Virus record (IMG/VR): IMGVR_UViG_3300009285_016375 | Coordinates: 1-64,000 of that record | Source: a virus | DNA length: 64,000 nucleotides | Reading direction: 5' to 3' (one strand) | In this document: positions 24,421-61,299 of the stretch, piece by piece | How positions within the stretch are numbered: position 1 is the stretch's first letter | Layout of the letters: each line of letters starts with the position of its first letter | Made by a program: the position numbers and the translations under genes | Notes under the pieces: generated by a model | What the model saw: the letters and a program-made list of their open reading frames with translations, nothing else | Told to the model about the DNA's origin: nothing | Databases searched by the model: none

Positions 24421-25413
24421 ATGGAAAATGGCGCAGAAAGTCAATCGTGGCCGGTGCTGGTGCCGCCCCAGATGTCGCACAAGCGGCTGGTGGCGCGCGG
24501 GCAAAGCCGCGTGAACACGAGATTGATGATGGCCATGCTTGACCGGCCGGTGAGCGGGGTGCGGAAAAACTGGCGGCAGGCGGCGGTCTATTCTCGGGCC
24601 CAGCAGCCCACCGCGGAACAGGTGCGGGAACTGGTGATGTGGGCGCAGCAGGTGAAACAATGGAGCCTGGGCATGCTGTCGGTGATGACGGGCATTCCGC
24701 CCCGGCGCTTGGGCGAGATTCGGAAAGGCGCCGCCGCCACCCTGCTGGAAACGCGGGTGTTATGGCTCTACTGGATGCTGGATCAGGCGCCGCAACTGCT
24801 CTACGACCCGTGGCACCTGGCGACTTGGGGCCGGTATCACGGTTTGGATCTGCCGCGGCGCCGGAATTTTCAGGAGGCGCGGCGGGAAATGCTGGCTTTT
24901 TGCCTGGCGGAAAAGGAGACGGGCCGCCACCCGCACACGCCGATGGGTTTGGCCCGGCGCTTCAACATGTGCCTGGCGAGCGTGCGCCACGCGGCCAAAA
25001 AGGCCGGGCTGCGTTTGGCCGACGGGCGGGCGCGCAGCCACCAGATCAAGGCTGGCCGGCGGCCCGCGTTTCTGGACACGTGCAAACCCTATTTGTACAT
25101 GGACTGGCGCAAAACGTATGCGCAACTGATGAAGGAGTGGGGGGTGAGCCAGACGCAGTTGATAAAAGCGCGGCAGTTTTACCTCAAGCTGTCGATCGAG
25201 AAGCTGCGCGGGCATTTTACGGCGGTGGGCAACGATCCCAAGGTGGTGGACGGGATTTTTGCACCGCGCCGCGGGGGTTGGGGCGGCGGGCGGGTGTTGC
25301 TGTGGGAGTACCGGCACCAGCGGGCGGAAGCGGAAAAAGCGGAAGCGGAAAAGAGCGCCCCGCCCACTGAGTGCACCGGGACAGAGGCCCCCTCGGTCAC
25401 AGCGGCACCGTGA
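24421..25413 (+). CDS. DNA-binding protein with two HTH-like segments
   Basis: This 330-aa protein may start at ATG 24421 or 24472. A first helix-turn-helix-like segment is LGMLSVMTGIPPRRLGEIRK (residues ~80-100). A second is PMGLARRFNMCLASVRHAAK, and a later WGVSQTQLIKARQFYLKLS could be a third. The C-terminus is Glu/Ala-rich. It is convergent with the large terminase gene (17-bp overlap), so a small-terminase or late-gene activator role is plausible, but no defining motif was found. Confidence 0.55.
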   Translation: MENGAESQSWPVLVPPQMSHKRLVARGQSRVNTRLMMAMLDRPVSGVRKNWRQAAVYSRAQQPTAEQVRELVMWAQQVKQWSLGMLSVMTGIPPRRLGEIRKGAAATLLETRVLWLYWMLDQAPQLLYDPWHLATWGRYHGLDLPRRRNFQEARREMLAFCLAEKETGRHPHTPMGLARRFNMCLASVRHAAKKAGLRLADGRARSHQIKAGRRPAFLDTCKPYLYMDWRKTYAQLMKEWGVSQTQLIKARQFYLKLSIEKLRGHFTAVGNDPKVVDGIFAPRRGGWGGGRVLLWEYRHQRAEAEKAEAEKSAPPTECTGTEAPSVTAAP

Positions 25414-26953
25414 CGATGCCGCCCGATTGCGGCAAGCGGACCAGCAAGGCTTCTTCCAGCTCCGCCCAGCTTTTGGCGGCAATGCAGTAGCGCAAAGCGT
25501 CCAGGCGGTGCTTGAGCGGGTCCGCAGCGGCCAGGCGGCCCTGCCGATTGAGGGCGATGTTGGAGAGGCATTCCCGCAGCAGTTCACAGCGGACATCCAC
25601 GATAATGCGGTCCTCGTGCATCAGCCGGCGGAGGAGCTTCAGGCCGGGCATAACCTTGCCCTTGGGGGCGGCCTCCAGTTCGATGCGGCCCTCACTGTAG
25701 CGGTAGATGGAGCGGGCTTCGAAAGCTTCCAAGCCTTCGCGCGGCGAGAAGGAGGAGGTGTCCGAGTAGTGGTGCCACAAGAGCCGTGTCCCGGCGCGTG
25801 CGGCCAGGGCGTCCATTTTCTCGAGCACCATTTCGGTGAAGTCCTTCAGGGAAATATTTTCCTTCAGGAGGACCAACTCGTCGTGGACTTTGAACAGGTA
25901 AATGGGTTCGTTGGCCGCCGCCGCCGAAATATCGACCGGCTCGATGAAGAGCACGGCCGGGTTGCGCCCGCCGTAGTCCCAGGCCGTGTTTAGCTCGACA
26001 CAGCCGGGTTCGAGCAACAGGTATTCGTCGTCCTGAAAGCGACCGGGATGCGCGTCGTCGGGGATGTTGCCGATGCGGCCGAAGACATGGGCGGCGGGGC
26101 GCCAGACGTCGGCAAAGTAACCGGCGCCGCTGGCCTTGACGTAAAGGCCGTAGTAGTAGCGAGCCAGGAGCACTGGGTCGCTGTAATAGGAGGAGTACAC
26201 GTCGCGGCGGTCTTCAGGGGACAGGAAGGTGTTGTCGTCGATGTTGACGGTGATGACTTCGATTTGGCGGTAGAACTCCTGCAGCGCTTGCCGGGCCTGG
26301 CCCGTGATATGATCGGGGATGGGCTGGTGCGGTTCCTCGAAGAAGAGCTGGTAGAACCAGGAATCTTTGCCTTCGGGAGGGGGGTTGACGTCCGCCAGGA
26401 ACATGTATTGGTCTGGCTGGATCGGGACGCCCGGCGGGGCCCGCAGGCATTGGCGGAGGATGTCGAAGGACTTGCGGCGGGTCAGCACTTCGTCCATTTG
26501 CGTGACCCAGAGGCCGGTGTAACGGCGGCCTTTGAAGCGCTGTTCCACCTCGTCTTCCACGGCCAAAGAATCGAGTTGGATGTAGGCTTTGCCAGCCGGG
26601 CCGAGAATTTCGCAGTATAGCTTTTTGGTGAGCCCTTTCTGGCGGACGCGCTTTTTGTGGTCCTCCACCCACTCGACCAAGCCATCGGCGGCCCATTGGT
26701 CAATGACGCCGCCGTCGCGGGTCAGGTCTTCCCAAGCGCCACCGTCGGCATTGAAGGTGTTGGTGGCCCCCAGGATGGAAAAGGAGGCCGGGCCGATGTC
26801 GCGGCAGTGTTTGAGGACGGCATGGGCGCACCCGATGGTTTTTCCGCATTTTCTCGGCCCGGAGAAGAGGCGGAAACGTTTGCGGGAATTGATGAGGCGG
26901 GCCTGCTTTTCAAATACGTCGAGGTAGTGCGAGCCGTCAGTTCTGAAAGGCAT
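25397..26953 (-). CDS. terL: terminase large subunit
   Basis: This 518-aa protein has the packaging ATPase motifs: Walker A GPRKCGKTIG (32-41), an adenine-binding-like RLFSGPRK segment before it, and Walker B GLWVTQMDEV. The nuclease domain begins with the acidic AWDYGGRNPAVLFIEP and ends with DPLKHRLDALRYCI. It cuts concatemeric DNA and drives it into the prohead through the portal. It is transcribed leftward, opposite to the portal across a 66-bp divergent promoter region. Confidence 0.9.
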   Translation of the reverse strand: MPFRTDGSHYLDVFEKQARLINSRKRFRLFSGPRKCGKTIGCAHAVLKHCRDIGPASFSILGATNTFNADGGAWEDLTRDGGVIDQWAADGLVEWVEDHKKRVRQKGLTKKLYCEILGPAGKAYIQLDSLAVEDEVEQRFKGRRYTGLWVTQMDEVLTRRKSFDILRQCLRAPPGVPIQPDQYMFLADVNPPPEGKDSWFYQLFFEEPHQPIPDHITGQARQALQEFYRQIEVITVNIDDNTFLSPEDRRDVYSSYYSDPVLLARYYYGLYVKASGAGYFADVWRPAAHVFGRIGNIPDDAHPGRFQDDEYLLLEPGCVELNTAWDYGGRNPAVLFIEPVDISAAAANEPIYLFKVHDELVLLKENISLKDFTEMVLEKMDALAARAGTRLLWHHYSDTSSFSPREGLEAFEARSIYRYSEGRIELEAAPKGKVMPGLKLLRRLMHEDRIIVDVRCELLRECLSNIALNRQGRLAAADPLKHRLDALRYCIAAKSWAELEEALLVRLPQSGGIVTVPL

Positions 26954-27425: not shown

Positions 27426-29963
27426 ATGACTGCCCGTAAGAAACCCAGTATGGACGAAACGGATTCTCCCCAGCCGCCGCCCCCGGCCGAAGAAGCGCCC
27501 CGGCCGAACGAGTTTTACAAGCGGATCGGGATCAGCCCCGAGACCCTGCGGCCGCTGTTCGAGACCAAGACACCCTCGAAGCGGATCAAGGCGTTGCTGC
27601 ATTTGATCCGCACGCGCCTGGAGGAAACGCGGCGCCGCAACCTGGCTGATGCGGCCACCTGGACGGCGGTGGATTTGGCCGTGGACACGGCCCTGAATTC
27701 GACCACGCCCACGCTGCTGGACAAGCTGCTCAACGGGCGGCTGTGGAAGGAAAGCGAGTTGGTGGACAGCCTGAAGCAGTGGAACATCTCCGAGCAGGAA
27801 GCGTTCGATTACGTGACGGAGGGCAACCAGACGGTGCGCGCCTTAAAGCAGCGCACGTTCTGGAAGGTGAAGCTGCCGTTGGCGGCGTCGATCCTCAAGT
27901 CGCGGGTGTCCCGCCTGTACACGGATCGCGATGTGGTGCCGTGGCTGCCGTATGAGCCGGTGGTCTCGACTGAGGCCAACCGCCTGAAATGTGAGCTGTT
28001 GACGAATTTGGCGGAGCGGTGGGTGGAACAGTTTGCCATCAAAGAGACTTACCGGCAGGCGCAGTTGCAGGCCGGCAAGTACGCGCGGGTGCTGGCGTTT
28101 GTGCAGGAGGCGTGGCACGTGGTGACCGAATACGACGCCGCCGGCAAGCCTGTGACCCTGAAAGAAGGGCTGCGTTACAACACCCCGCCGATCTATCGGC
28201 TGGGCTGGGACCTGGCGCATCCGCTCTACACCCTGAACACGGACACCGGCTGCACCTGGGCGCTCTACTGGCGGCTGGTGCGGGCCGGGGAGGTGATCAA
28301 CAACCCCGATTACTGGAACCGCGACCAGATCAGCTTCGGGTCAGCGTGGTTCGACCCGCTGATTTCCAACAACTATTTCAAAGAGATTTATCCCTGCCAA
28401 GCGACGCTGCCGTGCGACACGGACACGTGGCGGAGCTACCAGAACGACCGGGAAAAAGCGGCCCACCTGTATGACAACAACGAGCATGACGCGGCGCTGT
28501 TTCTGACGAACAAGGTGGCCAAGTTGGTGCCGGCGCAGTGGGGCCTGGGCGATTACCGGGGCGAACTGTGGTTCCGGTTTGTGATGGCGAACGATGACAC
28601 GGTGGTGTTTTCAGAACCGCTGCCGGCCTGCCCGGCGCTGTTCCTGGGCTGGGACGTGGACGAGAGCAAGACGCGCGACCCGAGCTTGGTGCTGGAAGCA
28701 CTGACGCACCAGGATTTCATCAACAACCTGGTCAGCCAGCATCGGCTGACGGTCACGCAGAACCTGATCAAGATCGTCTGGTACGACACGGCCAGCGGCG
28801 TGACCCTGGACACGCTGAAAAAAACCAAGGCGGAAAGCCACGAGTTCGCCCATATCTGCTACCTGCCCTACGACAGCCGCCGGTTTAAGGGGCAGGGGAT
28901 CGACCCGACCAAGATATTCGTGCCGCTGAATTTCGGGTATCAGGACACGACGCAGTTGATTGCCTGCCTGAACACGTATCTCAGCTTGATGGAGCGCATG
29001 ACGGGGATGAGCGCCAACGAGTTTGGGGTGAACGCGCCGCGGGTCACCACAGCTCAGGAAACGCTGCGGGTGGCGGAAAACGCCGGCTCCCGCCTGAATT
29101 ACACCGGGAGCTGGGCGGATGATTTTTTGGACGCGATGAAGCGGCAGTTTCATCGGTTTGCGCTCGCGTTTAGCGACGACGAGTTCACCGCCCACGTGAC
29201 CGATGCCACCGAGGCGAGCTTGCAGACCCTGCGAGCGCTGGGGTTTGAGGTGAAAGATACCGACTCGAACCGCAAGACCGAGGTGCGGGGCAACAAGCGG
29301 TTGTTGGACATCGACGATTTTGTGTCGAGCCGCTCGTTGCAGAACCGGATCAACAACCCGCAGGTGGCCCTGGTCATGTTCCAGGCCATTCAAGCCGTGG
29401 CCCCGTTCTTGATGGACGGGTCGGCGGGGGGCCGGCGGGAAGTGATCGGCCTGTTGAACCGGGCCGCGCAGATGGCCGGAGTGCCCCCGGACTTCAAATT
29501 CAACCTGCCCGAAAGACAGGACGAGGGGCCGCCGGCGCCGGCGGTGAAAGTGACTGAGACGGTGAAGTACGCGGACCTGCCCGAGGACGTGAAGCGGCAA
29601 GTGGAAGCGCAACTGGGTTTGCAGCCTTCCCAACTGCCCAGCCCCGAACAAATGCAGGCAGTGTTGGCGCAGCAAATGGTCCAGGCCGGGGAAGCCATCC
29701 AGCAGGGAGCGGTGCAGAAAGCGGTGCAAGAGGTGGGCCAGGGACTGGAGCCGGTGCTGGCGGCCATCCAGCAGCAACAGACGCAACTGAGCCAATTGGC
29801 CCAGGCGCTGGCGCAAAACCGGGATCAAGACGCCCAAGTGGCGGCCGGGGTGGGAGAGCTCCAGCAAGCGCTGGCGGGGCTAGCGCAGCAACACCAGCAA
29901 CTGCAAGGGCTGCTGGCTGATCAGGCCAGCCAGGCGACGGGCCCGGGTGTTCCCAGCCTATGA
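27426..29963 (+). CDS. portal protein (podovirus-like, large)
   Basis: This 845-aa protein is placed as portal by size, order (next to terL, before scaffold and capsid) and sequence style. It has a helical N-terminus, KVKLPLAASILKSRVSRLYT, a central WALYWRLVRAGEVINN region, SLMERMTGMSANEFGVN, and QETLRVAENAGSRLNYTGSW followed by FLDAMKRQFHRFALAF, like the stem/crown helices of large podoviral portals. The last ~150 residues are a Gln-rich coiled coil. The portal forms the dodecameric DNA gate. The family was not confirmed by a diagnostic motif. Confidence 0.68.
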   Translation: MTARKKPSMDETDSPQPPPPAEEAPRPNEFYKRIGISPETLRPLFETKTPSKRIKALLHLIRTRLEETRRRNLADAATWTAVDLAVDTALNSTTPTLLDKLLNGRLWKESELVDSLKQWNISEQEAFDYVTEGNQTVRALKQRTFWKVKLPLAASILKSRVSRLYTDRDVVPWLPYEPVVSTEANRLKCELLTNLAERWVEQFAIKETYRQAQLQAGKYARVLAFVQEAWHVVTEYDAAGKPVTLKEGLRYNTPPIYRLGWDLAHPLYTLNTDTGCTWALYWRLVRAGEVINNPDYWNRDQISFGSAWFDPLISNNYFKEIYPCQATLPCDTDTWRSYQNDREKAAHLYDNNEHDAALFLTNKVAKLVPAQWGLGDYRGELWFRFVMANDDTVVFSEPLPACPALFLGWDVDESKTRDPSLVLEALTHQDFINNLVSQHRLTVTQNLIKIVWYDTASGVTLDTLKKTKAESHEFAHICYLPYDSRRFKGQGIDPTKIFVPLNFGYQDTTQLIACLNTYLSLMERMTGMSANEFGVNAPRVTTAQETLRVAENAGSRLNYTGSWADDFLDAMKRQFHRFALAFSDDEFTAHVTDATEASLQTLRALGFEVKDTDSNRKTEVRGNKRLLDIDDFVSSRSLQNRINNPQVALVMFQAIQAVAPFLMDGSAGGRREVIGLLNRAAQMAGVPPDFKFNLPERQDEGPPAPAVKVTETVKYADLPEDVKRQVEAQLGLQPSQLPSPEQMQAVLAQQMVQAGEAIQQGAVQKAVQEVGQGLEPVLAAIQQQQTQLSQLAQALAQNRDQDAQVAAGVGELQQALAGLAQQHQQLQGLLADQASQATGPGVPSL

Positions 29964-30259
29964 TTACCGCCGAGCTGGTGCCGTTGCTCGAGCCCGAGCA
30001 ACAAGCGTTGCGCCAATGGTTGGCCAGCCCGCTGTGCGAGGAGTTTTTGCGCAGCGTGCAAGCCGAGATCGACGTGGAGCTGGAGCAGGCGAAAACCGCG
30101 ATGCTGGAGGCCCAGGAGTTTCCCAACATGGCCGCCGAGGCAGGGCCGCATTTGGCCCGGGCCAGCGACTGGCAGAAAGTCGTGCGGATGCTGATGGTTT
30201 GCCGCCGGAGTTACGAGTTTAAGCAGGTGCATATTACACATCAACCCAATCCCGCATGA
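29960..30259 (+). CDS. small helical virion-operon protein
   Basis: This 99-aa protein starts as ATGA over the portal stop. It is helical and acidic (LVPLLEPEQQALRQWLASPL, LEQAKTAMLEAQEFPNMAAE). Its own stop overlaps the next ATG. Its position between portal and scaffold suggests a head-assembly helper. The function is unknown. Confidence 0.6.
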   Translation: MITAELVPLLEPEQQALRQWLASPLCEEFLRSVQAEIDVELEQAKTAMLEAQEFPNMAAEAGPHLARASDWQKVVRMLMVCRRSYEFKQVHITHQPNPA

Positions 30260-31653
30260 GTACTGAAACTGAGGGCAACCCAGCCGAGCAGAAAGCAGGA
30301 GCGTTCGCCCGCCGTTATTTGGGCGAACAGGCCGAAGCGGTCCCAACCGAGGCCGCCGCGCCCGAGGCGGCGCCGCCCGCGGCCCCGGTTCCGGATGCTG
30401 GAGCCGGCTCGCCCTCTGATTCAGCCTCGAAGGAGGCTGCCACTGCGAGCGCCGCCCCAGAGAGTGGCGCACCGCCCCAGGGTGAGCCGAAAAAGGTGGT
30501 GACCTACAAGGTGCCGCGCAAGCATCAGGAGGCGCCCCCCCCGGCCGCGCCCGCCGTGGCGACTTTGGATGAGGAAGCGGCCAAGCGGATCGGCCAGGAA
30601 ACAGCCCGCGCCCTGGCCGAAGCGCAGGCCAAGTCCCTGGAGGTGGAATTCGAGGCGGAAGAGCGCGAGACGATCGCCCTCATTCACGTGCTGGAAGAGG
30701 AGAAGGTGTATCCCCAAGGCGCGGCCGACAAGGTGAAAAGGGTGTTGGCCGCCATTGCTGAAAAAGAGTTGGACCCGGACGGCGCGGAGGCCAGAAAGCT
30801 GTGGGAGGGGCTCGGGTTTGGTGTGACCGAACGGGACCTGGCCCGCGCGGAAGGGTTGCGCCGGGAACGGCCTTGGAAAGCGCGGCTGGCCGCGGCCGAA
30901 GAGGGGCGTGAAGCCCTGGAAAAGCAAGTGTTGTCGCTGCGGCTCGACCGTGTGGCGGAACGGGCCGGAGCGGCGGCCGCTCGCCAAGCGGCCAAAGCAC
31001 TGGCGCCGGAGGCCGGCTTGGCCGACCGGAACGGCTTGGACGAAGAAAAACTGGAGGAGTTTGCCCAGAGCGGCGCCACGGGCCAAAAGATTGCCCAGGC
31101 GATAGTCAGCGCGCGGAACTGGGCCGCCGGTGCGCAAGCGACGATAGCGTTGCTGGAGCAGGAAGCCGCCTATACCGGCAAAGGGAAGACCCCGCCCAAG
31201 TGGTTGGTGGAAGAGATCAACGGCTCCGAGCTGATGCACTTCGTGGCCGAAGCCAGCGCCAAGCTGCCGGGGGTCGAAGACGGGGAAGGCCGCGCGTTCG
31301 TGGCCCCGGCTGAGTATGAGAAGCTGCCCGCCGAGGCGCGGGCAGGGCACTGGACGATCACGCTGGACAACGCCATTCCCCTGGGCTTGCAGCGCATTAC
31401 CCAGGGGGCCAAACAAGCCGCGGAAAGGGTGACTCGGGAAAAGCAGACCGACCGGTCTGCTGTGGAAGCCGAGCTGAGAGCTAAACTGGCCAAGGAATGG
31501 GGAGTGGACCCAGCCACCGGCAAGCCGGCCGGGGCGGGGACCATGCGGACGGAAAAGCCGAAAAGCCCGGCGGCCCTGGACCCAGCGGTGGCCGCGGCGG
31601 CGCCGAGTCACACGCAGGTGGCCGCGTTTGAGCGCAGGTTTTTGGGGAGGTGA
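30256..31653 (+). CDS. scaffold-like protein
   Basis: This 465-aa protein has a low-complexity Ala/Pro/Glu N-terminus and long charged helices (DEEAAKRIGQETARALAEAQ, LRLDRVAERAGAAAARQAAK). The C-terminus ends VAAFERRFLGR, echoing the N-terminal AFARRYLGE. This composition and its location directly before the capsid gene fit a prohead scaffold, which occupies the shell and is removed before DNA entry. There is no protease signature. Confidence 0.55.
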   Translation: MSTETEGNPAEQKAGAFARRYLGEQAEAVPTEAAAPEAAPPAAPVPDAGAGSPSDSASKEAATASAAPESGAPPQGEPKKVVTYKVPRKHQEAPPPAAPAVATLDEEAAKRIGQETARALAEAQAKSLEVEFEAEERETIALIHVLEEEKVYPQGAADKVKRVLAAIAEKELDPDGAEARKLWEGLGFGVTERDLARAEGLRRERPWKARLAAAEEGREALEKQVLSLRLDRVAERAGAAAARQAAKALAPEAGLADRNGLDEEKLEEFAQSGATGQKIAQAIVSARNWAAGAQATIALLEQEAAYTGKGKTPPKWLVEEINGSELMHFVAEASAKLPGVEDGEGRAFVAPAEYEKLPAEARAGHWTITLDNAIPLGLQRITQGAKQAAERVTREKQTDRSAVEAELRAKLAKEWGVDPATGKPAGAGTMRTEKPKSPAALDPAVAAAAPSHTQVAAFERRFLGR

Positions 31654-31807: not shown

Positions 31808-33628
31808 ATGCCCACACCAACCGAAGCGCTGACGACTGAAAATTTCTTCGCGTCTTGCACCCCTGGCATTCGCACGGACTTAGACAAGTCGGGCGTGATG
31901 ACCCTGACCAACATTGAGGTGCCCACCCCGTCCGAACTGGACGGCATCTTCAGTGGGTCCAGCCAACTGGCCACGCTGAGGATTCTGGAGGACCTGTTTC
32001 TCTGGAAGCTGGAAGTGAACGCGATGGGTTACAAGAAGTATGACCTGTTCGACCTGTTCACGGACCTGGCGGTGGACGTGTCCGGCAAGCTGGGCGGGAT
32101 CGAGAAACGGGCCGGGGTGCCGGAGATTGCGCCGTTCATCTACGCCCGGCGCGAGGAGCCCATCAACAACATTTCCTGGAAGCTGGCCAGCGGCTACCGC
32201 AGCAACGCTGCCGGCGCAGTGGATGCGGCGGGCGATTACTGGACGGTCTCAGTGACCAACTCAGAAGGCATCCCGCTGGACGACGATGGCAGCGGCGGCT
32301 CCGATTGGTTCCACGAGAACGAGATTGTCTTTGCCACCACCTTGACCGAGGGCGGGACGGTGGCCCACACGCAGTGGAAGGTGAAACTGTTCGTTTCCAG
32401 CGGCGACAAACTGGTCTTGGAACCCGCCATGCCGACGGCCGCGCCCACTACTGGCTCGTCCGCTGCGCCGGGCGGTTTGTTTGACTGGGGCGTGACCAAC
32501 CCGACCCTGACGCCGCCGGTGACGGGCGATCTGGTGCGGGGCACGAACAACGTGACGCCTTGGGAAAGCTGGTGCTATCAGCCGCCGGGGTTGATTTCCA
32601 ACCAGGTGGACCCGTTCTGGTTCCAGCACAGCCAGGAGAGTTACAAGGTCTCGGAATCCTACCGGAAATGGCAGGAGATGATTGCCCGGAAGAACGTGCT
32701 CTACGACAGCTTCTACAATCTGCCGGAGGCCCAGGGGCGGCGCCAGGCGGCGGACGATTTCAAGCGGCGGGTTGCCAACCAACTGATGTTCGGCTATCCC
32801 AGCAGCAGGGAACAAACCCTGTACAGTTACCGGAACCTGCCCACGGCCACTTTCTATTATCCGGCGACCCTCAACCCCACTTCCGCGACCGACGCGTACG
32901 TGGGCACGGCGGGCGCCACCGAAGTCGTGACCCGGAAGGCCGATGCCGTAGGATTTTATTGGCAACACAAGGCCAGGGGGAGAGTCATCGATCTCCAAGG
33001 CCGGGCCCTGAACATTCCGGCCTTGATCGACCTGCTCTATGGGCTGGTGCGGTATCGCAAGCAGATTGGGATGCCCAACGCGGACACGGTGGAGATCATG
33101 TGCACCAGCGAGTATCATCCGGCCTTCGACAAGGCCATGATGTTGCACTACAAGGACGTGTATAGCGACCAACTGCGCTTTAACGCGGACGCCAGCAAAC
33201 CGCTGCTCAGCAACCTGAACCTGCGGTACGTGGAGTATCCGCTGCGCTACCCGGCCGGGGTGACGCTGCGGCTGGTGTTCCACCCGTTCTTTGATGACCT
33301 GATCTCGCGCATGAAGACCAGCGGCAACGAGAACGCCGGGCGGCAGTTGTGGATGTTGCCCTGGAAATACAACCGGATGGGCATCATCAACACGGTGCGC
33401 AAGACGCGCACGGTGGGCGACATTGAGGAACTGGCCAAGGTGAACCCGTTCTATCAGTGCCAGATTTACGGGCGGAAGACCTACATCGACCTGATGAACA
33501 TGTGCTTCACGGCGCTGAGCACGGCGCCGATGGCGGGCATCATCTTCCAAGGCGTGAGTTCGGCAGTGCCGGAAGCGATCTCCAAGGGCACGGAAGATTA
33601 CGTGCAGGCGTGCTCGCTGATCCCGTAA
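31808..33628 (+). CDS. major capsid protein candidate
   Basis: This 606-aa protein follows the scaffold-like gene. It has an N-arm (TPTEALTTENFFASCTPGIR), a Trp/Tyr-rich inserted domain (SGGSDWFHENEIVFATTLTE), and a C-terminal core with RALNIPALIDLLYGLVRYRK, EIMCTSEYHPAFDKAMM and LRLVFHPFFDDLISR. It ends with GRKTYIDLMNMCFTALSTAP. Order and length fit a large podoviral HK97-fold capsid with an insertion. No diagnostic motif exists, so the call rests on synteny. Confidence 0.6.
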   Translation: MPTPTEALTTENFFASCTPGIRTDLDKSGVMTLTNIEVPTPSELDGIFSGSSQLATLRILEDLFLWKLEVNAMGYKKYDLFDLFTDLAVDVSGKLGGIEKRAGVPEIAPFIYARREEPINNISWKLASGYRSNAAGAVDAAGDYWTVSVTNSEGIPLDDDGSGGSDWFHENEIVFATTLTEGGTVAHTQWKVKLFVSSGDKLVLEPAMPTAAPTTGSSAAPGGLFDWGVTNPTLTPPVTGDLVRGTNNVTPWESWCYQPPGLISNQVDPFWFQHSQESYKVSESYRKWQEMIARKNVLYDSFYNLPEAQGRRQAADDFKRRVANQLMFGYPSSREQTLYSYRNLPTATFYYPATLNPTSATDAYVGTAGATEVVTRKADAVGFYWQHKARGRVIDLQGRALNIPALIDLLYGLVRYRKQIGMPNADTVEIMCTSEYHPAFDKAMMLHYKDVYSDQLRFNADASKPLLSNLNLRYVEYPLRYPAGVTLRLVFHPFFDDLISRMKTSGNENAGRQLWMLPWKYNRMGIINTVRKTRTVGDIEELAKVNPFYQCQIYGRKTYIDLMNMCFTALSTAPMAGIIFQGVSSAVPEAISKGTEDYVQACSLIP

Positions 33629-34948: not shown

Positions 34949-36550
34949 ATGACCTTTGCCGCGTTCAAGGACGCCCTGCGGGCCGACCTCTGGCCGGAAG
35001 GCGTGCCGGACGAACTGTGGTATGCTGCGGATTTGACGAGTCCCGGCCCCCTGCAGAAGCGGGTGGTGGACGGGTTGTTCGAGCTGCAACGGGTGGTCAG
35101 GCGCTTGCAGCAACACCACCGGGACATTATCCCCTTTTGCGCGACGCTCTTCGAGTGCAGCAGCGGCCTGACCGTGGCCTCAGCCCCGCGCGGCCGGATC
35201 ACGCGCGTGGTGACCCTGGCAGACGACTGCTGCGAAGCCCACTACCATTACACCGACCGCTTGCCGGCGCTGCAGGAATGGTCCGGCGAGTTTGTGGAGC
35301 GCTACGCCCGGCCCAATCGCGAGGCAGATTTGCCCATCGGCGTCGCCTCGGCCAGCGCCGAGCGCGACAAAGACGCCGGGCGGGCGCGTTTCGGTTTTTT
35401 CACCCTTTACCAAGGCCGGCTGTATTTGGGGCCTTGGATTCAGAGCACCGAACGGATCGGGGTGGACTGGGAGGGGTACAAGCGGTCCTGGCTGGAGAGC
35501 GACGAGGTGGACGACGATCCCGAGCTGTTCCGGGCCGTGTGCAATTATGGGTGGTGGGAGTATCTGAAGCGCTGGCCGGAGTATGCCAACACCGACCTGC
35601 GGCAACTGGAGGCGGCTGAGGCGGCGTGGCTGGAAGCGCGGGCCAACCTGATCATCGACGAGAACTTGGAAAGCGTGCCGGACACACCCGAGATGGTGTT
35701 TCCTTCCCGGCGCCGTTTGGCCTGCACCAGTTGCACGGAGGTGTATCCGTGCGACGACCCGACGGCCGGCAGCGAGGCGAGCGACAGCAGCCAAGTGTTT
35801 GCGGTGGTCAGCGATTTTGGGACCGACCTGCCGGAAGACCCGGAGGAAGTGGCGGCTTTGGTGGCGGGCTGGAGCCCGCAGTTCATTGCCACCACTGGCG
35901 ACAACATCCAGGAGGACGCCGGGGAGGGCGATTACGTGGAGTTGGTCAAGCCGCTTTACGGGGCCTACATCACCGGCCATCTGGCCAGCACCCGTTTTTT
36001 CCCGGCGCTGGGCAATCACGATTTGAACGACGCCAGCCTGGCGGATTACCAGGCGTTTTTCACGCTGCCAGGCAACGAGCGCTATTACCAGGTGCGGCGC
36101 GGGTTTGTGGAGTTGTTCATCCTGAACAGCAACAGCAGCGAGCCGGCCGGGCGCAGCAGCACCAGTGCTCAAGCCAAATGGCTGGAAGCCATGGCGGCCC
36201 TGAGTTCGGCGCCGTGGAAGATCGCGCTCTTCCATCACCCGCCGTATAGCTCGGTGGACGGAGCGGCGGTGGCGGCCCTGCAATGGGATTTCAAGAAACT
36301 GGGCCTGGACCTGGTGCTGAGCGGGCACGCCCACGTGTATGAGCGGCTGGTGGTCAATGGGCTGACTTATCTGGTCTGCGGCTTGGGCGGGGCGGCCCTG
36401 ACCAGTTTCGGCACAGTCTCGCCTTACAGCCAATACCGTTACGCCTCCGAGCACGGCGCCCTGAAGATTACGGCTTCCTGCCAGCAACTGCTGATTGAAC
36501 CGACGAACACAGACGGAAATGTCATCGAGACGGTGACGCTGACGAAATGA
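34949..36550 (+). CDS. neck/adaptor protein fused to a purple-acid-phosphatase-like domain
   Basis: This 533-aa protein joins two modules. Residues 1-270 look like a head-tail adaptor (MTFAAFKDALRADLWPEGVP..., two WWEYLKRWPEY/EAAWLEARANL helices). Residues 283-533 are a calcineurin-type metallophosphoesterase with all metal-binding blocks: SDFG (Asp289), GDN (Asp318), GNHD (355-358), FHHPPYSS (His429/430) and GHAHVYER (459-466). GHxHxYER is characteristic of purple acid phosphatases. The fusion would mount a phosphoesterase at the neck or tail of the virion. The substrate is unknown. Confidence 0.75.
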   Translation: MTFAAFKDALRADLWPEGVPDELWYAADLTSPGPLQKRVVDGLFELQRVVRRLQQHHRDIIPFCATLFECSSGLTVASAPRGRITRVVTLADDCCEAHYHYTDRLPALQEWSGEFVERYARPNREADLPIGVASASAERDKDAGRARFGFFTLYQGRLYLGPWIQSTERIGVDWEGYKRSWLESDEVDDDPELFRAVCNYGWWEYLKRWPEYANTDLRQLEAAEAAWLEARANLIIDENLESVPDTPEMVFPSRRRLACTSCTEVYPCDDPTAGSEASDSSQVFAVVSDFGTDLPEDPEEVAALVAGWSPQFIATTGDNIQEDAGEGDYVELVKPLYGAYITGHLASTRFFPALGNHDLNDASLADYQAFFTLPGNERYYQVRRGFVELFILNSNSSEPAGRSSTSAQAKWLEAMAALSSAPWKIALFHHPPYSSVDGAAVAALQWDFKKLGLDLVLSGHAHVYERLVVNGLTYLVCGLGGAALTSFGTVSPYSQYRYASEHGALKITASCQQLLIEPTNTDGNVIETVTLTK

Positions 36551-39114
36551 AATTTCCCATCGAACGGGTAGCGTCTTGCCGGCTGTCAGCCGATGATCCC
36601 AGCAGCACTTGTGACTTGGCGAGCCAGCCGAACACGGGGGAGATAGAGCAATGCTCCGACCCGGCCTTTGCCGCGGCCCACCCGGCGCTGTGCCGGAACT
36701 ACCCGCGGCTGCGGATTCAGCCCAGCCTGGCCACGGTGTTAGTGAATGAGGATGTAGATTTTCAAGCCTTCGTGACCCAAGGGGGCATCGAGCAGGCCCT
36801 GGACGATGACAGCGGAGTGGTCTGGACGCTCTCGGATCAAACGGTGGCGGTGATCGGCGGGCGCAGTGGCAAGGCCACCGGCGTCACCGCGGGCACCGTG
36901 CAGATTTCAGCGGTTTGGCAGAATTTGACGGCTTCCGCGCAGTTGACGGTGTTGGCCGCCGGGGGCGAAGGGGCCGGGTGCCAGGGCAAACACGTGGGGG
37001 TGGTGGTGGTGCTGGATAAGAGCAAATCCATGAGCCAGGGTTTTGGGGGCGGGTTTTCGAGCAAGCTGGCTTACGGCAAGGCCGCGGCCAAGCTGCTGGC
37101 CAACAGCCTGGACTTGACCAAGGACACCATTGGATTGGTCTCGTTCCATGCCACCGCCACGGAGGAACTGGGACTGACCACGGATTTGGCCGCCTTCGAG
37201 ACGGCGGTAAATGGCGTGGCTCAAAGTGAGAACGGCACGTCCCTGTTGAGCGGGGTGCGGGCGGCGGTGGAGATGCTGGAGGCGGCGGGAAACGATTACT
37301 CGGTGGTGGCGCTGATTACGGACGGCAACGACAGCGGCTTGTTCGGAAGCAACAGTGTGCCGGCGGAACTGAGAACGGCGGTGCCCAACACCATGAGCCT
37401 GGCTGTGCTGGGGACGCGGGCCAGCGGGCCGGGATTCCATTTGCTGCGGGACCTGACCATCAACGGCTTTTTCGTGAACGGTTACGCGGAGGGCGGGGTG
37501 GAGAACGGAGCGGATGAGGCGTTCGCGCAGTTGAAGCGGTATTTCTGCGGGTGTGGGGAAACGACCCGGCCGTGTGCGTCTATCTTCATGCCGCGGTTGA
37601 ACTACACTGGTTTTGCCAATTGGGAGGTCACGGGCTTGGTGGATTTGATCGGCGGGTTCGAGCCGTGGACCTTGTTTGATTTTCTGCCCGGCAACGGACT
37701 TTACCCGGACATGGTGGGGAGCCCCAATCCGGGGCAGAGTGGGTTGGGGCGGCTGACTTTGAAAGCGTCCCAGCAACCGACCTTCACTGCGGCTGCCAAT
37801 TACACCCTGACGGTGCGCCTGGCGGGAAACCAGCGGGAAGGAAGCGCGACCCAGGTAAAACTGAAGGTGGGCACATTGCTGGCGGAACAGAGTGTCAATT
37901 TCGCGGCTTCAGACTGGACCCAGGATTTCACCGATCACGAGTATGAATTCGTGGGCGACGGGGCGGCGCACGCGGTGGAGATTTGGCAGTCGAGGGGCTG
38001 TGTCAACCCTGCGTTCGGCAACTTGTTGAAGTCAGTCACGATCCGCAACGCCGACACGGACGCGCTGGTGTTCCACGATGTTTTCAACACGGAAAACTAC
38101 CAGGCCGTGGATTGCGGGGCCGTGGATTGCGGCGGCCACGGTTTCTGGAACGGCTACCGGTGCGTGTATCGCTGCCAGGAAGTGACGGTGCCGACGGCCC
38201 AGCCTGACCCCGCTCCCTTGACGGATAATGAGAGCGAGGCGGCACCGGATTTCTGGACCAGCCAGCAGACCTACACCCGGACGTGTGCCGAAGGGATACT
38301 GGTGACGGGCACCGGCACGGCCAGCAGCAGCCTGAGCCAGGCGCACGCGGACGCCCAAGCTCTGGCGCGCGCCCAAGCGGCGGCCGTGTGCCCAAGCGGG
38401 GAACTGGCCCCCAACGATTTCATGCTGATCCATTTCGAGCGCGGCATGAACTATGGGTCGGAGGATGCCGCCCGCTGGCCCACTACGCGCATCAAAGGGT
38501 TGGGGTTGGTGCCGGTGGGCGCGACCAATGACGTATGGAACCAACCCAGCGTGGATTTGCTGGAAGGGGTGCTGGCGCAAATAGATAATGGGTTCTATTT
38601 GGAGGACAACGGGGGGGCCACTACTTCCAGTTGGATGCCGGTCGAATATTCTTCCTTGCAACATTTGTCCGGGGTCAGCAGCACGCATTATGCCCCGATC
38701 TCGTTGGGCCAGGCCGGGCCGGAGTTTTATCAGCGGACGGAAGTGATGCAGGAGGAGCAATACCGGACCATCCACAATCTGCCGGCGGGCAACTACGATG
38801 TGTATGTGTGGGGCGCGGCCCGGAACGCAGACGGGAAGGACGGCGGGCTGGCCACCACCCAGATGTATGGGGGCCGGTTCAACCTGGAAGTGCTGGATGC
38901 CGACGGAGCGGTGGATACCGATCTGGGCGCCAAGGAACACACCCTGGCCGACCCGGACGTGCTGAGCAATTGGCCGCTGGTGGAAGACCAGGATTACGTG
39001 CGCTGGAGCGTGGCGCCGGTGCCGGCCGGCGGGTCGTTGCGGGTGACGGTCAAACAGCCCAGCGGCGGCGGCTGGCTGGTCATCAGCGGCATCCAGATTC
39101 AGCGTTTTCCATGA
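36547..39114 (+). CDS. virion protein with Big2-like and von Willebrand A domains
   Basis: This 855-aa protein overlaps the previous stop as ATGA. Residues ~55-135 resemble a bacterial Ig-like Big2 domain (SGVVWTLSDQTVAVIGGRSG, KATGVTAGTVQISAVW). Residues ~150-320 are a vWA domain with a MIDAS site: Asp157-x-Ser-x-Ser (VVVVLDKSKSMSQG) and ALITDGND around Asp259. Downstream is a beta-rich C-terminus with several Cys pairs and a terminal jelly-roll-like part. Such domains bind ligands through Mg2+ and are unusual in phages. A tail adhesion role is inferred. Confidence 0.75.
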   Translation: MKFPIERVASCRLSADDPSSTCDLASQPNTGEIEQCSDPAFAAAHPALCRNYPRLRIQPSLATVLVNEDVDFQAFVTQGGIEQALDDDSGVVWTLSDQTVAVIGGRSGKATGVTAGTVQISAVWQNLTASAQLTVLAAGGEGAGCQGKHVGVVVVLDKSKSMSQGFGGGFSSKLAYGKAAAKLLANSLDLTKDTIGLVSFHATATEELGLTTDLAAFETAVNGVAQSENGTSLLSGVRAAVEMLEAAGNDYSVVALITDGNDSGLFGSNSVPAELRTAVPNTMSLAVLGTRASGPGFHLLRDLTINGFFVNGYAEGGVENGADEAFAQLKRYFCGCGETTRPCASIFMPRLNYTGFANWEVTGLVDLIGGFEPWTLFDFLPGNGLYPDMVGSPNPGQSGLGRLTLKASQQPTFTAAANYTLTVRLAGNQREGSATQVKLKVGTLLAEQSVNFAASDWTQDFTDHEYEFVGDGAAHAVEIWQSRGCVNPAFGNLLKSVTIRNADTDALVFHDVFNTENYQAVDCGAVDCGGHGFWNGYRCVYRCQEVTVPTAQPDPAPLTDNESEAAPDFWTSQQTYTRTCAEGILVTGTGTASSSLSQAHADAQALARAQAAAVCPSGELAPNDFMLIHFERGMNYGSEDAARWPTTRIKGLGLVPVGATNDVWNQPSVDLLEGVLAQIDNGFYLEDNGGATTSSWMPVEYSSLQHLSGVSSTHYAPISLGQAGPEFYQRTEVMQEEQYRTIHNLPAGNYDVYVWGAARNADGKDGGLATTQMYGGRFNLEVLDADGAVDTDLGAKEHTLADPDVLSNWPLVEDQDYVRWSVAPVPAGGSLRVTVKQPSGGGWLVISGIQIQRFP

Positions 39115-41648
39115 AGCTGCGCCTGACAGCCCCCAGCGATGAGACGAGCAGTTTTGGCCTTCAGGCCAGCAAAAGCCAGCAGGCGTTGAGCAAGTTGGGG
39201 GTAGTCTGGGATGAGAGCGCGGAGACCGAACTGAGATTTGGGCACCCGCTGCAAGGCACGGACAAAAAGGCCCGGCGGCTGGTCTGGTGCACGAACTGGG
39301 AAGCGCCGCGGCTGACGGCGGAGGCCAAAGCCAAGCTGGCCCAGGCGGACCTTTTGCTGGTGCCGTCCCACTGGACGGCCACGGTGTTTTCAGCCGCCGG
39401 CCTGGATAATGTGCAGGTGGTGCCGCTGGGGTATGAGCCGGCGGTGTTCTACAGCATCAAAAAGGCCCAGGCCCAGCGGCCCTTTGTCTTTGGCTGCGCC
39501 GGAGACGCCCGGAGCGGGGTGCGGCGCAAGAACCTGGAACAGGTGGTGCGCTGTTTTCAGGCGGCCTTCGGGGAGAGCAAGGAAGTGCGGTTGCACGTCA
39601 AATGCCGGGCGGGCCACCTGGCCAGCCCGCAGCCGAACGTGCTGGTGGATACGGTGCGGATGAGCGAAGCGGAGGTGGGGCACTGGCATCGGGCACTGGA
39701 TTGCTTTGTAAATCTGGCCACGGGCGGTTTTGAACTGCATATCTTGCAGAGCATGGCTTGCGGGGTGCCGGTGGTCAGCCATGCGTTTGGGGGGCACACG
39801 GATTATTTCCACGAGCGGAACGGGCTGGTGGTGGCACACAGCTTGGAGCCGGCGCAAGAGACCTGGGCCGGGTGCGGGTTGTGGGCCACGGTCAAGGATG
39901 AAACGCTGATGGAAGCGATGCGCTGGGCGGCGCGGGAGCGGGCGTATGCCGAAAGCATCGGGTGGAGTGCGGCTTACTGCGTGCTGGAGCTGACGTGGGA
40001 GAAGCACGGGCAACGCCTGGCTGAGCTGCTGGGAGAGCCCGAGGAAGCCGCGCCTGACAGTTTCACCGCGCCGGTGCGGGTGAAGCCAGTGAACACGCCC
40101 GCGAAGCCTGCGAAACCAGTGCGTGTCCGGCTCCTTTACCAGGAATACACACCGGACGCCGACACCCGCGGACGGATCGAATTTGCCAGGACCAGTTGGG
40201 ACCTGGCGGCTGGTTCCGGCGTGACTGTGGAGTTCGTCCCCTTCCGCGTCTCCGACCTGCCCAGGAATGCGGGGGAGGTGGGCGATGACCGGCAATGTCC
40301 GTTCGTGAAGGATGTGTTCAACTACGGCCTCCAGGGTTGCGACGATGATACGGTCATTGCCTATGTCAACGCCGATGTCGCGCTCTGCCAGGACTGGTTC
40401 GAGACGGCCCGGCCGTGGATCGGGCAGTGTGGCTGCTGGTATTCCAACCGGTGGGACGTGAGCCGGTTCGGCCGGGCGGTGACGCCCGAGTGGCTGGCCC
40501 GTAGCCCTGGTGCGGCGGCCACGGTGGGAGCCGATCTCTTCACCTTCACGCCGGAATGGTGGCGTAACCATCGCGACCAGATGCCGGATATGATCCTGGG
40601 GTATGAGGGGTGGGACTTCGCGTTTCAGTGGCTGATGCAGGCATCGGGGTTTGACCCGGCCAAGTCCCGGATGGTGATCTATCACGAAAGGCACTCGTCG
40701 TTCTGGTCCCGTTCCGTGAATCTCTCCAGGCACCCTGCCCAGGTTTACTGCCGCAAGGCTGGCTTGGACTGGGCGACCCAGAGGGGCCTGCTGCACTATG
40801 TCGGAGGGCGTCACGGTTATTTGTTCCGTGGGTTGTCGAATGCGCGCGCCAGGCGGCAACCGAAAGGGTTGCCTAAACTGGCCATCCTGGGCCTGGCCAG
40901 GAATTGCGCCCACACCCTTGTGGGACTGACTCGAAGCCTGAGCCCTTTGCTGGAACGATGGCAGTGTGCTGCGTGGGTCTGTGCTGGGGATAACGACACT
41001 GCCGGAGCACTCGACGCCTGGCAGGAGGAGGCGATGCCCGTCTTTCAAGTGGCCGAACCGCCGGCACGCCACGGCGAGAGCCGATACGGGCGGCTGGCCA
41101 GCCTGCGGAACGCGGTCCTCGACGCCTGGCAGGAGAGCGGGTTCGGTGCCGAGACAGTGCTGTGGCTGGACATGGACGCGGCGAAGATGAGGGATGAGGG
41201 CGGGCTTGCCAGGGTGGCCAAAGCGGAGTGGTCGGGTGTGGCTACGCTGGGCCTGGCTGCCGCCAGCAAGGTGAATGGATACCATTGCGGGCCGGTCCTC
41301 AACCGCTACGGCCGGGACTGGGTGTACTACGACACGTTGGCCCTGGAGACGGTGGATGGGGCGCGCTACCTCTGGCCGGACATATCGCACCCGGCCTCCT
41401 GGTATTCACATGGGACTGTGCCCGCCGGCACGACGTTCCTGGCCTGCACCCCACCCTTGAAGCTGGATGGGTGGCAGGAGGTGAACAGCGCTTTCGGGCC
41501 GGCGACGTTCTACCGGTGGGCGGACATCGAAGGGTTGCGCTACGACGAGCACGCGCAACAGTGCGAACACCAGTCGTTTCACCAGAGCCTTCGGGAGCGG
41601 GGTGGGCGCATCGCCCTGGCAAATGACATCATCTTTCTATACGCGTGA
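39111..41648 (+). CDS. three-domain glycosyltransferase
   Basis: This 845-aa protein overlaps the vWA gene stop (ATGA). Residues ~1-310 form a GT4-like domain: VPSHWTATVFSAAGL, VVPLGYEPAVFY, LHVKCRAGHL and LATGGFELHILQSMACGVPV. Residues ~335-570 look GT2/nucleotide-sugar-like (AYVNADVALCQDWFE, EGWDFAFQWLMQ). Residues ~590-845 carry a third module with LAILGLARNCAHTLVGLTRS and a DxD-like LWLDMDAAK. It probably builds a glycan on a virion protein or host surface. Its neighbours are FkbM and GT17-like genes. Confidence 0.8.
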   Translation: MKLRLTAPSDETSSFGLQASKSQQALSKLGVVWDESAETELRFGHPLQGTDKKARRLVWCTNWEAPRLTAEAKAKLAQADLLLVPSHWTATVFSAAGLDNVQVVPLGYEPAVFYSIKKAQAQRPFVFGCAGDARSGVRRKNLEQVVRCFQAAFGESKEVRLHVKCRAGHLASPQPNVLVDTVRMSEAEVGHWHRALDCFVNLATGGFELHILQSMACGVPVVSHAFGGHTDYFHERNGLVVAHSLEPAQETWAGCGLWATVKDETLMEAMRWAARERAYAESIGWSAAYCVLELTWEKHGQRLAELLGEPEEAAPDSFTAPVRVKPVNTPAKPAKPVRVRLLYQEYTPDADTRGRIEFARTSWDLAAGSGVTVEFVPFRVSDLPRNAGEVGDDRQCPFVKDVFNYGLQGCDDDTVIAYVNADVALCQDWFETARPWIGQCGCWYSNRWDVSRFGRAVTPEWLARSPGAAATVGADLFTFTPEWWRNHRDQMPDMILGYEGWDFAFQWLMQASGFDPAKSRMVIYHERHSSFWSRSVNLSRHPAQVYCRKAGLDWATQRGLLHYVGGRHGYLFRGLSNARARRQPKGLPKLAILGLARNCAHTLVGLTRSLSPLLERWQCAAWVCAGDNDTAGALDAWQEEAMPVFQVAEPPARHGESRYGRLASLRNAVLDAWQESGFGAETVLWLDMDAAKMRDEGGLARVAKAEWSGVATLGLAAASKVNGYHCGPVLNRYGRDWVYYDTLALETVDGARYLWPDISHPASWYSHGTVPAGTTFLACTPPLKLDGWQEVNSAFGPATFYRWADIEGLRYDEHAQQCEHQSFHQSLRERGGRIALANDIIFLYA

Positions 41649-41653
41649 CACCT

Positions 41654-46292: not shown

Positions 46293-48347
46293 ATGAGCGC
46301 ACTCAAACCGATTTCACTCAAACCTTTCACCGGCCTCCTGGACGTGCGGAGCCCGCCCGACCTGATGCCGGCAGGGTCCTGGCGGCGGCGGCTGAACTGG
46401 ATGACGGTGGAGACCCACAAGCTGGGCCGGAGGGACGGCTGGCGGCGGTTCTTGTATTCGGCCAGCGGCTATCACAACGCCGACTGGCACGACCAGTTGC
46501 TGGCGCTGGTGCCGGGGGCGACCCGGGAACCCTGCACGTTGCTCAAGGAACTCGTGACGACTTGGGGCACGCGTTACCTTTTGGCGGGCTCGGCCAGCCG
46601 GCTGTATCAGTTGAACGAGACCACCGGCAACTGGAAGATGCTAGGGCACAGCTTCGGCGCCGGCCACCCGGATCCGGGCAGCTTGCGCTGGCAAGCTGCG
46701 CAGGTGCTGAACACGGTGGTGTTGACCAACAACTGGGACGCGCCGGTCAGTTACACCATCGACGCGGAGCCCGACGCCGACGGCCAAACGGTCTCGGCCC
46801 TGGCCGACTTGGACCTGATCGGCCTGAGCAAAGCGGGGGCCGTGGGTGTGTTCAAGGACATCGTGATTTTCGGCAATGTGATCCTGGAGGGAGGCCGCCA
46901 GGAGAATTTGCTGGTCTGGAGTGATCGTCTGGCGCCGGCCTCGTTTGATCCCTCGAAGGCCGGCACGCTGGCGGACAGCCAGGCGCTGGCTTACGGCGAG
47001 CGCATCGAGCGGATCGAGGAGTTCGGGGATTACGTGCTGGTGTACACCAACCAGCGGATTTGGCGCGGGGCGGCCACCGGAGACCCGGACCAAAGCACCC
47101 TGGCCTTTGTGACGGTGTACGAGTCGCCCGAGAAGGCGCGCGGCTACCGGTGCCTGGCGTATCCTTACACGCTGGTTTCGACCGGAGCCGAGCATTACTA
47201 CTTGGGGCGGGACGGCATCTATCGGGTGACCGGTTTCACGGCGCCGAGCAACCCGCCGGAACGGGTGGGCTGGGCGCACCTGGCCAGCGACCTGATCTTT
47301 CGCAGCGGGGAACTGGATGCGACCAACTGCCACGCGCACGTGGGGGTGTATTGGAGCGCCCGGCAGGAAGTGCAGTTTTTTTGGGCGGTGCCCGGCGCCA
47401 GCACGCCCGGACACGGGCTGGCCTTGGATTTCGGGGATCGCACTGCCCACGAACTGGACTACGGCCTGACCGCGGGCTGCGAGTTTCGGTCGGACAGCCG
47501 CATCTCGTATCGGGACTGGATTCGGCAAAGCTGCGGGTGCGATGTGGCCGCCTTGCCCGCTGGCTTTGCCCTGGAGGGGTTGCCGGCCAGCGACGTGGCC
47601 TGCGACTCGACGCCGGCGGTCTGGTTGACCAGCGCCACCGAAACCCTGGATGGCTTGGCGACCGAGCGGTGGGACACGCTCTCGCCTGAGGCCGGGGCCT
47701 GGGCCGACGGCGAGGAGGTGCTGGGCAAACGGGCGGACCACTTTTGCGCGGGCTGCAATGAGGCGGCGGTGCTGGTGGTGGCCGCCGGCAGCGATTACGC
47801 GCTGAAGCAGTGCGGCGGGGTGTACCAATTCGAGCGGTGCAGCAATGCGGGCAGCGGCAGCGGCACCCTGGATGGAAACGGGCGCTATCAATCGTTTGCC
47901 GGCACGTACGAGAGCGACGGGTATCTGAGTGTGCTGACCTCCGGGCCGCTGGCTTTGGGCGAACCGGGCCTGGAAAAAGCGATCCGCCGCTTCATTCTGG
48001 ACGCCGAGCCGGCCGTGCAAGCCACCCCCTCGGCGGTGTCGTTGCGGATCGGAACCAGTTACTCGCCGTTGGACCCGCTCAACAGCGCCGCCGGCGAGAT
48101 CATTTGGACGCACCCGCGAGCGGTGTTATTGGCCTCAGCCCAGAAACGGACGGCCGCCGAATACCAGGCCAAAGGCACGCGGCCGGGCAGCGGGCTGAAC
48201 TGGCCGCTCTTTGCCAAAGGCAGATACCTGTATTTGGAGCTGAGCATCGGCAGCCTGCAGGAGGCGAATGACCTGCGCAGCAATTTGTTGCCGGGCACGG
48301 GCGGAGCCTGTAATGTGTCGGGAGCCTTGCTCCATGTGGTAAAATGA
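46293..48347 (+). CDS. tail nozzle-like beta-propeller protein
   Basis: This 684-aa protein starts MSALKPISLKPFTGLLDVRS and runs through repeated blades (YLLAGSASRLYQLNETTGNW, DIVIFGNVILEGGRQENLLV, YVLVYTNQRIWRGAA, YYLGRDGIYRVTGFTAPSNP). Short-tailed phages carry a beta-propeller nozzle of about this size (P22 gp10/T7 gp12-like), usually encoded before internal proteins, as here. The call is by size, order and repeat style. Confidence 0.6.
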   Translation: MSALKPISLKPFTGLLDVRSPPDLMPAGSWRRRLNWMTVETHKLGRRDGWRRFLYSASGYHNADWHDQLLALVPGATREPCTLLKELVTTWGTRYLLAGSASRLYQLNETTGNWKMLGHSFGAGHPDPGSLRWQAAQVLNTVVLTNNWDAPVSYTIDAEPDADGQTVSALADLDLIGLSKAGAVGVFKDIVIFGNVILEGGRQENLLVWSDRLAPASFDPSKAGTLADSQALAYGERIERIEEFGDYVLVYTNQRIWRGAATGDPDQSTLAFVTVYESPEKARGYRCLAYPYTLVSTGAEHYYLGRDGIYRVTGFTAPSNPPERVGWAHLASDLIFRSGELDATNCHAHVGVYWSARQEVQFFWAVPGASTPGHGLALDFGDRTAHELDYGLTAGCEFRSDSRISYRDWIRQSCGCDVAALPAGFALEGLPASDVACDSTPAVWLTSATETLDGLATERWDTLSPEAGAWADGEEVLGKRADHFCAGCNEAAVLVVAAGSDYALKQCGGVYQFERCSNAGSGSGTLDGNGRYQSFAGTYESDGYLSVLTSGPLALGEPGLEKAIRRFILDAEPAVQATPSAVSLRIGTSYSPLDPLNSAAGEIIWTHPRAVLLASAQKRTAAEYQAKGTRPGSGLNWPLFAKGRYLYLELSIGSLQEANDLRSNLLPGTGGACNVSGALLHVVK

Positions 48348-60975: not shown

Positions 60976-61299
60976 GCCACAGCATTCGCCAAGTTGTTTG
61001 GTTGCTGCGAGGCGGCGCTCGTGACCGAGCCGAGCCGATGGCAGGCGCCCACAGCAATAAAGTCGCTTGGTTGCTGCGAGCAGTTCGGCGCCAGTAAGGC
61101 GGATGCCGCGCAGCGTCCCCACAGCATTCACCAAGTTGTTTGGTTGCTGCGAGGACGGTTTCCGCTGAAATGTCATGGCCCAGCAGGTCAGCCCACAGCA
61201 TTCGCCAAGTTGTTTGGTTGCTGCGAGGACGGAGCGGGCCTCGTCCACTTCGGGGTTCATTTGCCCACAGCATTCGCCAAGTTGTTTGGTTGCTGCGAG
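60976..61299 (-). CRISPR. CRISPR array, five 36-nt repeats and four spacers
   Basis: Repeats lie at 60976-61011, 61048-61080, 61118-61153, 61192-61227 and 61264-61299. The consensus starts CCCACAGCATTCGCCAAG and ends TTGTTTGGTTGCTGCGAG (plus strand). Copies 4 and 5 are identical, copy 3 and copy 1 differ by one base each, and copy 2 is degenerate (33 nt). Spacers are 36, 37, 38 and 36 nt with unrelated sequences. The repeat can fold: CAGCA pairs with TGCTG and CCAA with TTGG. Degeneration at the 60976 side marks the old end, so the leader is toward 61300, next to the effector gene, implying transcription on the minus strand. Confidence 0.93.

Follow-up and report, generated by a model that had tools for sequence, protein, structure and literature searches.

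A purple-acid-phosphatase-like domain fused to a predicted phage head-tail adaptor, and the repeated loss of its active site

Why would a protein encoded among the presumed virion genes of a phage carry the fold of a phosphatase? This question was raised by an open reading frame (ORF) at 34949-36550 in a 64,000-nucleotide stretch of DNA (hereafter, the window), taken from a virus record of 74,507 bases. The ORF lies on the plus strand, is open from its ATG to its stop codon and encodes 533 amino acids. The first-pass annotation read it as a head-tail adaptor fused in one frame to a purple acid phosphatase (PAP)-like enzyme, which could process envelope phosphates during entry.

Gene neighbourhood and distribution of the fusion

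We assessed the gene order around the ORF. The terminase gene, on the minus strand, is followed by candidates for the portal, scaffold and capsid proteins, two further ORFs and the adaptor ORF. The order is similar in relatives, in which an ORF of similar size lies at the same place as the 606-aa capsid candidate; the portal and the capsid protein were assigned by position only. The genes and the domains of the ORF are as follows:

25397..26953, minus strand: terminase large subunit (phrog_2, E 2.3e-15)
27426..29963, plus strand: portal candidate, 845 aa (by position only; no named portal-family match)
30256..31653, plus strand: scaffold candidate (by position only)
31808..33628, plus strand: major capsid protein candidate, 606 aa (by position only; no family match)
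34949..35674, plus strand: N-terminal adaptor-like domain, residues 1-242 (alignment A3, AlphaFold2 model, Foldseek matches)
35675..35788, plus strand: linker, residues 243-280, mostly predicted disordered (low pLDDT; varies in length and sequence in the alignment)
35789..36547, plus strand: C-terminal PAP-like metallophosphoesterase domain, residues 281-533 (PF00149 and VIA-align)
36547..39114, plus strand: next gene, with Big_2 and VWA domains and a weak DUF5977 match (MIDAS-type DKSKS from residue 157)
46293..48347, plus strand: virion structural protein, nozzle candidate (phrog_3287, E 6.9e-13; relative in L054, E 5.8e-29)

Also among the presumed virion genes are a glycosyltransferase (phrog_2170), an FkbM methyltransferase and a weakly glycosyltransferase-17-like gene at 39111-43035, and an SdiA-regulated family protein (PF06977, E 3.8e-45) at 43097-44035. 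Further downstream, a 3123-aa ORF at 51126-60497 had no PHROG match and starts with repeats of 'YRVIEP'; a gene in locus L013 has a repetitive start (YLDDA/YLDEA) that resembles it. A tandem repeat with a period of 74, 3.5 copies and 70% matches lies at 60977-61232.

An AlphaFold2 model of the 533-aa protein, built from 32 aligned sequences, had a mean pLDDT of 86.1 and a pTM of 0.56, and pLDDT fell below 50 only in the linker (residues 243-265 and 270-278). A model from the single sequence (P0001; pLDDT 34.6) was discarded.

When a single protein (one of the two domains, the terminase or the capsid candidate) served as the query, pattern searches of viral and genome collections retrieved no relatives. 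A scan of IMG/VR with the pattern GH[AV]HVYER retrieved L011 (L-numbers, such as L011 and L023, label the loci or records compared in this analysis), which has the gene order of the window and a full-length homologue with both domains at 39% identity. Using the two-sequence alignment A2, we obtained 31 loci; an alignment of the phosphatase domain gave 22, partly overlapping. The adaptor-PAP-like fusion was present in 14 lineages besides the window, with close groups counted once (L014, L015 (= L011), L016, L018, L019, L020, L022, L023/L024/L025, L037, L049, L052/L054/L056, L053, L060/L062 and L063). Since the two domains also share one frame in 14 further distinct viral lineages, the fusion goes beyond chance or assembly error. 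An assembly artefact was also ruled out by the fusions of L017/L018, L020/L021 and L025/L033, each of which occurs in two independent metagenome contigs. Thus, gene order, the AlphaFold2 model and conservation in 14 other lineages support the annotated fusion of an adaptor-like and a PAP-like domain in one frame.

Sister adaptors carry other domains in place of the PAP-like domain, namely DUF5977 repeats in L026 and L030 (PF19404, E down to 2e-29) and a chitobiase C-terminal-like domain in L038, indicating that different C-terminal domains can be swapped onto a conserved N-terminal one. In L037 (9314-11419), an in-frame intein splits the adaptor gene within the N-terminal domain (Hint_2, E 2.9e-8; TIGR01443 intein C-terminus, E 1.2e-6, with its end at VHN|C).

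The adaptor profile had no match among 84,980 prokaryote species in a search whose pattern method reaches near matches only; therefore, no host or prophage was identified. Three 'Bacteriophage sp.' records from human faeces retrieved by tblastn (L002, L003 and L005; MT835841, MT835888 and MT837099) were set aside because their gene content was like that of bacterial chromosome fragments.

Fold and metal ligands of the C-terminal domain

Residues 284-464 matched the Pfam family Metallophos (PF00149) with 58.4 bits (cut-off 21.5; E 1.7e-15). With a profile score above the curated cut-off and five motifs, the domain belongs to the calcineurin-like metallophosphoesterases. The motifs, taken from the ligand table, are as follows:

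35813..35815, plus strand: motif I, Asp289 (SDFG, 288-291)
35900..35911, plus strand: motif II, Asp318-Asn-Ile-Gln321 (TGDN, 316-319)
36014..36022, plus strand: motif III, Asn356-His357-Asp358 (GNHD, 355-358)
36233..36235, plus strand: motif IV, His429 (FHHPPY, 428-433)
36323..36346, plus strand: motif V, GHAHVYER (459-466), with His460 and His462

The closest solved relatives by sequence were PAPs (PDB, E about 5e-6), and the domain was modelled as a PAP fold, with a VIA-align Z of 28.5 against human PAP 2bq8 (2.3 A, 243 residues). The best 23 VIA-align rows were PAPs, PAP phytases and GAP50, with Z values of 25.2-28.5; PfGAP50 scored 27.1, and PhoD, GpdQ and Rv0805 scored about 20. The window domain shares with the mammalian PAPs (TRAP/ACP5; PDB 2bq8, 1ute and 1qfc) the fold, at Z 28.2-28.5 and 2.3-2.6 A, and the five metallophosphoesterase motifs with GHxHxYER. 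However, it is only ~20% identical to them, is fused to a phage adaptor-like domain and has Gln321 in place of the tyrosine ligand.

The tyrosine of GDxxY is a ligand of the ferric site of PAPs and the source of their purple charge-transfer colour. Since Gln321 occupies this position, we filed the window domain as PAP-like and not as a strict PAP. The core residues D289, D318, N356, H357, H429, H460 and H462 are all retained. Accordingly, the complete metallophosphoesterase motif set of the first-pass annotation was recovered, including GHAHVYER, but the PAP set lacks its tyrosine. Some relatives possess the tyrosine ligand (L016, L019, L037, L052, L013 and L055).

The PAP fold also occurs in larger assemblies and larger proteins. 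PfGAP50 (PDB 3tgh), the apicomplexan glideosome anchor, has its fold in common with the window domain and uses it as an anchor in a larger machine (PMC8949495), which may be a precedent, by analogy, for the exaptation proposed below. Unlike the window protein, PfGAP50 is a eukaryotic membrane anchor that is also reported to be an acid phosphatase, and it has no phage adaptor domain. Bacillus phage G gp352, an annotated metallophosphoesterase, resembles the window ORF as a large phage protein with a C-terminal metallophosphoesterase; its gene lies beside a very large ORF, and it matched the window protein structurally with E 2.4e-14. However, its N-terminal part differs, with no adaptor fusion as far as compared. 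A PAP-like domain with all core ligands and the tyrosine was also observed in a 1773-aa phage protein (L055:6144-11465, in a contig of 202,975 bases); judged by eye only, the start of this protein resembles that of a tail or baseplate protein.

Active-site loss under purifying selection

The ligand table revealed three catalytic states across the family: intact, partial and dead. The core was intact in 12 distinct sequences (the window and 11 others), three of which lie outside adaptors. This retention of all core ligands fits selection for catalysis in those phages. The partial sites of L049, L053 and L060/L062 lack N356 and the first histidine of GHxH and keep D289, D318, Tyr321 and H462; in PAP numbering, we take this to mean that the M1-site ligands were kept and the M2 site was broken. 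In L018, L020, L022, L023, L024 and L025, all seven catalytic positions were lost.

No Pfam family match was obtained for L018 and L023, the two dead proteins scanned. The profile of the intact domains found all six dead domains with E values of 1e-55 to 1e-69; therefore, their homology is not in doubt. None of the seven catalytic positions was kept in at least half of the dead members, as against 39 of the 44 other conserved positions (Fisher p 7e-6, which describes a pattern, as alignment positions are non-independent samples). In L022-L025, NG86 omega was 0.09-0.15 for the dead domain compared with 0.05-0.15 for the adaptor, both being rough values with dS often above 1. Plain decay of the dead domain was thus ruled out, given the low omega and the persistence of conserved positions outside the catalytic set. 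A relocated enzyme was tested for as a second PF00149 match, and none was present in the dead-clade records, several of which are fragments.

In the adaptor-domain tree, the dead members clustered together (88/68, 91% of bootstraps) beside L035, which has no PAP-like domain (100/100). The tree has long branches for the window and L063 and many deep forks without resolution. Four changes are needed on it to account for intact and eroded sites; for the intact label, branches with good support require two or more. Judged from sequence, the active site has been lost repeatedly on separate branches while purifying selection persisted, and catalysis is dispensable in this fusion family. That the domain is dead yet conserved suggests that, in these little-studied tailed phages, an enzyme has become a component of the virion with a binding or structural role; such a domain can, in principle, also be retained for folding or solubility.

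The neighbouring VWA gene was compared with the catalytic state. All searched records in which the adaptor carries an intact domain have it beside the adaptor gene (weakly in L014), as do those with DUF5977 adaptors. It was not found in the records of L018, L020, L022, L023, L024, L025, L035 and L049, several of which are fragments and in which the dead clade represents one event. In L013, the PAP-like, Big_2 and VWA domains share one ORF. The gene following the DUF5977 adaptor in L030 (L030:11684-15637) encodes VWA, P-domain and F5/8 type C domains together with a divergent Metallophos domain (34.6 bits), which the family alignment missed. These two arrangements and the co-occurrence of the VWA gene hint that the PAP-like and VWA parts may work together.

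We then weighed the annotated role in entry. In that case, the virion would carry an active phosphoesterase whose substrates at entry are envelope phospholipids, phosphorylated glycans or extracellular phosphates, and the dead relatives would be derived exceptions that use another entry route. The intact core positions and the close match to the PAP fold speak for this role, as does the exopolysaccharide-degrading activity reported for KP32 tail tubular protein A (TTPA; PMC5440376). In addition, the VWA neighbour is missing from the site-less clade, which could mean that a function in two parts was given up. However, purifying selection holds the dead domains, which were neither decayed nor deleted, and several branches separately show erosion of the site: six relatives lost all seven residues, and three more lineages lost part of them. 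The window protein itself lacks the PAP tyrosine. The entry role is only partly supported, and we consider it rather unlikely.

The N-terminal domain and a proposed role at the neck

In the model, residues 1-242 form helices at 3-14 and 34-54, a beta region at 57-175 and helices at 191-208 and 217-241; alignment A3 contains a conserved GPWIQSTE motif at 161-168. The domain had no Pfam or PHROG family match, and tblastn found no relatives in 50,697 phage records. A missing sequence match to adaptor families is not decisive because known adaptors share no sequence homology with each other (PMC6702177). Similarly, hhalign of the adaptor profile against T7 gp11, PhiCHU_65 and the phi14:2 tail tubular protein gave no signal, that is, similarity to T7 gp11 was undetectable; as single-sequence profiles are weak, these blanks were not counted against an adaptor.

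Adaptors of the gp11 type consist of a helix bundle, a beta dock and a C-terminal embracing helix (PMC6702177; PMC5440376). The modelled layout of the window domain resembles that of T7 gp11, P22 gp4 and KP32 TTPA in its helix bundle, beta insertion and long C-terminal helix (PMC6702177). These proteins are located between portal and nozzle, and the same position would be expected for the window protein. To our knowledge, none of the three carries a C-terminal PAP-like domain.

The viral Foldseek matches of the two-domain model, in rows without a residue range, included a crAss-like protein named 'putative tail tubular protein', a structural protein of phi14:2 and a constituent protein of PhiCHU; the best was a phage protein of 554 aa, with 520 aligned columns. 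The phi14:2 protein among them is probably gp069, which is annotated 'Tail tubular protein (P22 gp4-like)' and is also 243 aa long. The window ORF lies in the block that follows the capsid candidate, and the gene for the 208-aa constituent protein is placed likewise in PhiCHU. The PDB rows for the two-domain model were all taken up by the phosphatase domain. The modelled helix/strand layout, the gene order and the Foldseek matches support, but do not prove, the identity of residues 1-242 as a P22 gp4/T7 gp11-type head-tail adaptor.

Alternatively, the N-terminal domain may not be a portal adaptor but a different protein, of the virion or not, whose gene follows that of the capsid protein. The blank family and profile searches would agree with this, as would tail-tubular matches that are not tied to particular residues and a PDB list filled by the other domain. 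We regard it as improbable, given that the helix/beta/helix layout matches the description of gp11-type adaptors, that the gene follows the capsid candidate and that the Foldseek matches bear tail-tubular and structural names.

As an adaptor, the protein would form a portal-bound ring in a tailed, probably short-tailed, phage, with about 12 copies per virion if the ring is dodecameric as in T7 and P22. The flexible linker C-terminal to the adaptor would display the PAP-like domain around the neck. We think it fairly probable that such a neck adaptor now displays the domain as a binding or assembly module for which hydrolysis is optional. The domain may first have been acquired as an enzyme, and it would now most likely serve at the virion surface by holding on to the neighbouring VWA protein or to a phosphorylated ligand, either in the envelope or extracellular. 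In some phages, perhaps in that of the window, hydrolysis may be retained, and it may be dispensable in others.

We regard it as very improbable that the domain acts inside the infected cell, possibly once the disordered linker (about 36 residues) has been cleaved. There it could be a nuclease or a counter-defence phosphodiesterase, a role reported for the metallophosphoesterase gp48 of mycobacteriophage A10ZJ24 (PMC12287305). Against this, the nearest folds are PAPs and not nucleases, related PAP-like domains occur in other large phage proteins (L055 and L008) or, in L013, next to Ig-like and VWA domains, and dead copies were retained.

Display at the neck is not without parallel. The first-pass annotation knew of no standard neck protein of this kind, which is fair for the adaptor-PAP-like fusion: the open-access text that we searched contained no description of this fusion or of a phage PAP-fold pseudoenzyme. 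However, neck proteins with extra functions have been reported, including KP32 TTPA (PMC5440376) and the neck passage proteins of the 936 group of lactococcal phages, with their carbohydrate-binding modules (PMC6669499). The 936 phages would share accessory binding domains at the neck with the window phage as proposed here, whereas the phage type and the domains differ.

The chances seem evenly balanced that these phages form an undescribed group in which a PAP-fold enzyme, fixed on the head-tail adaptor, has repeatedly become a virion pseudoenzyme, a display module without catalysis, and in which site loss correlates with VWA gene loss in one clade. If so, adaptor rings at the neck, usually viewed as plain connectors, would be a platform for swappable displayed domains, whether PAP-like, DUF5977 repeats or chitobiase C-terminal-like. 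The natural series of intact, half-eroded and dead sites on the same protein allows one to ask whether catalysis or binding is selected and why a phage neck bears an enzyme fold. A 'phosphatase' label given by homology alone is wrong or doubtful for 7 of the 15 fusion lineages, i.e., about half.
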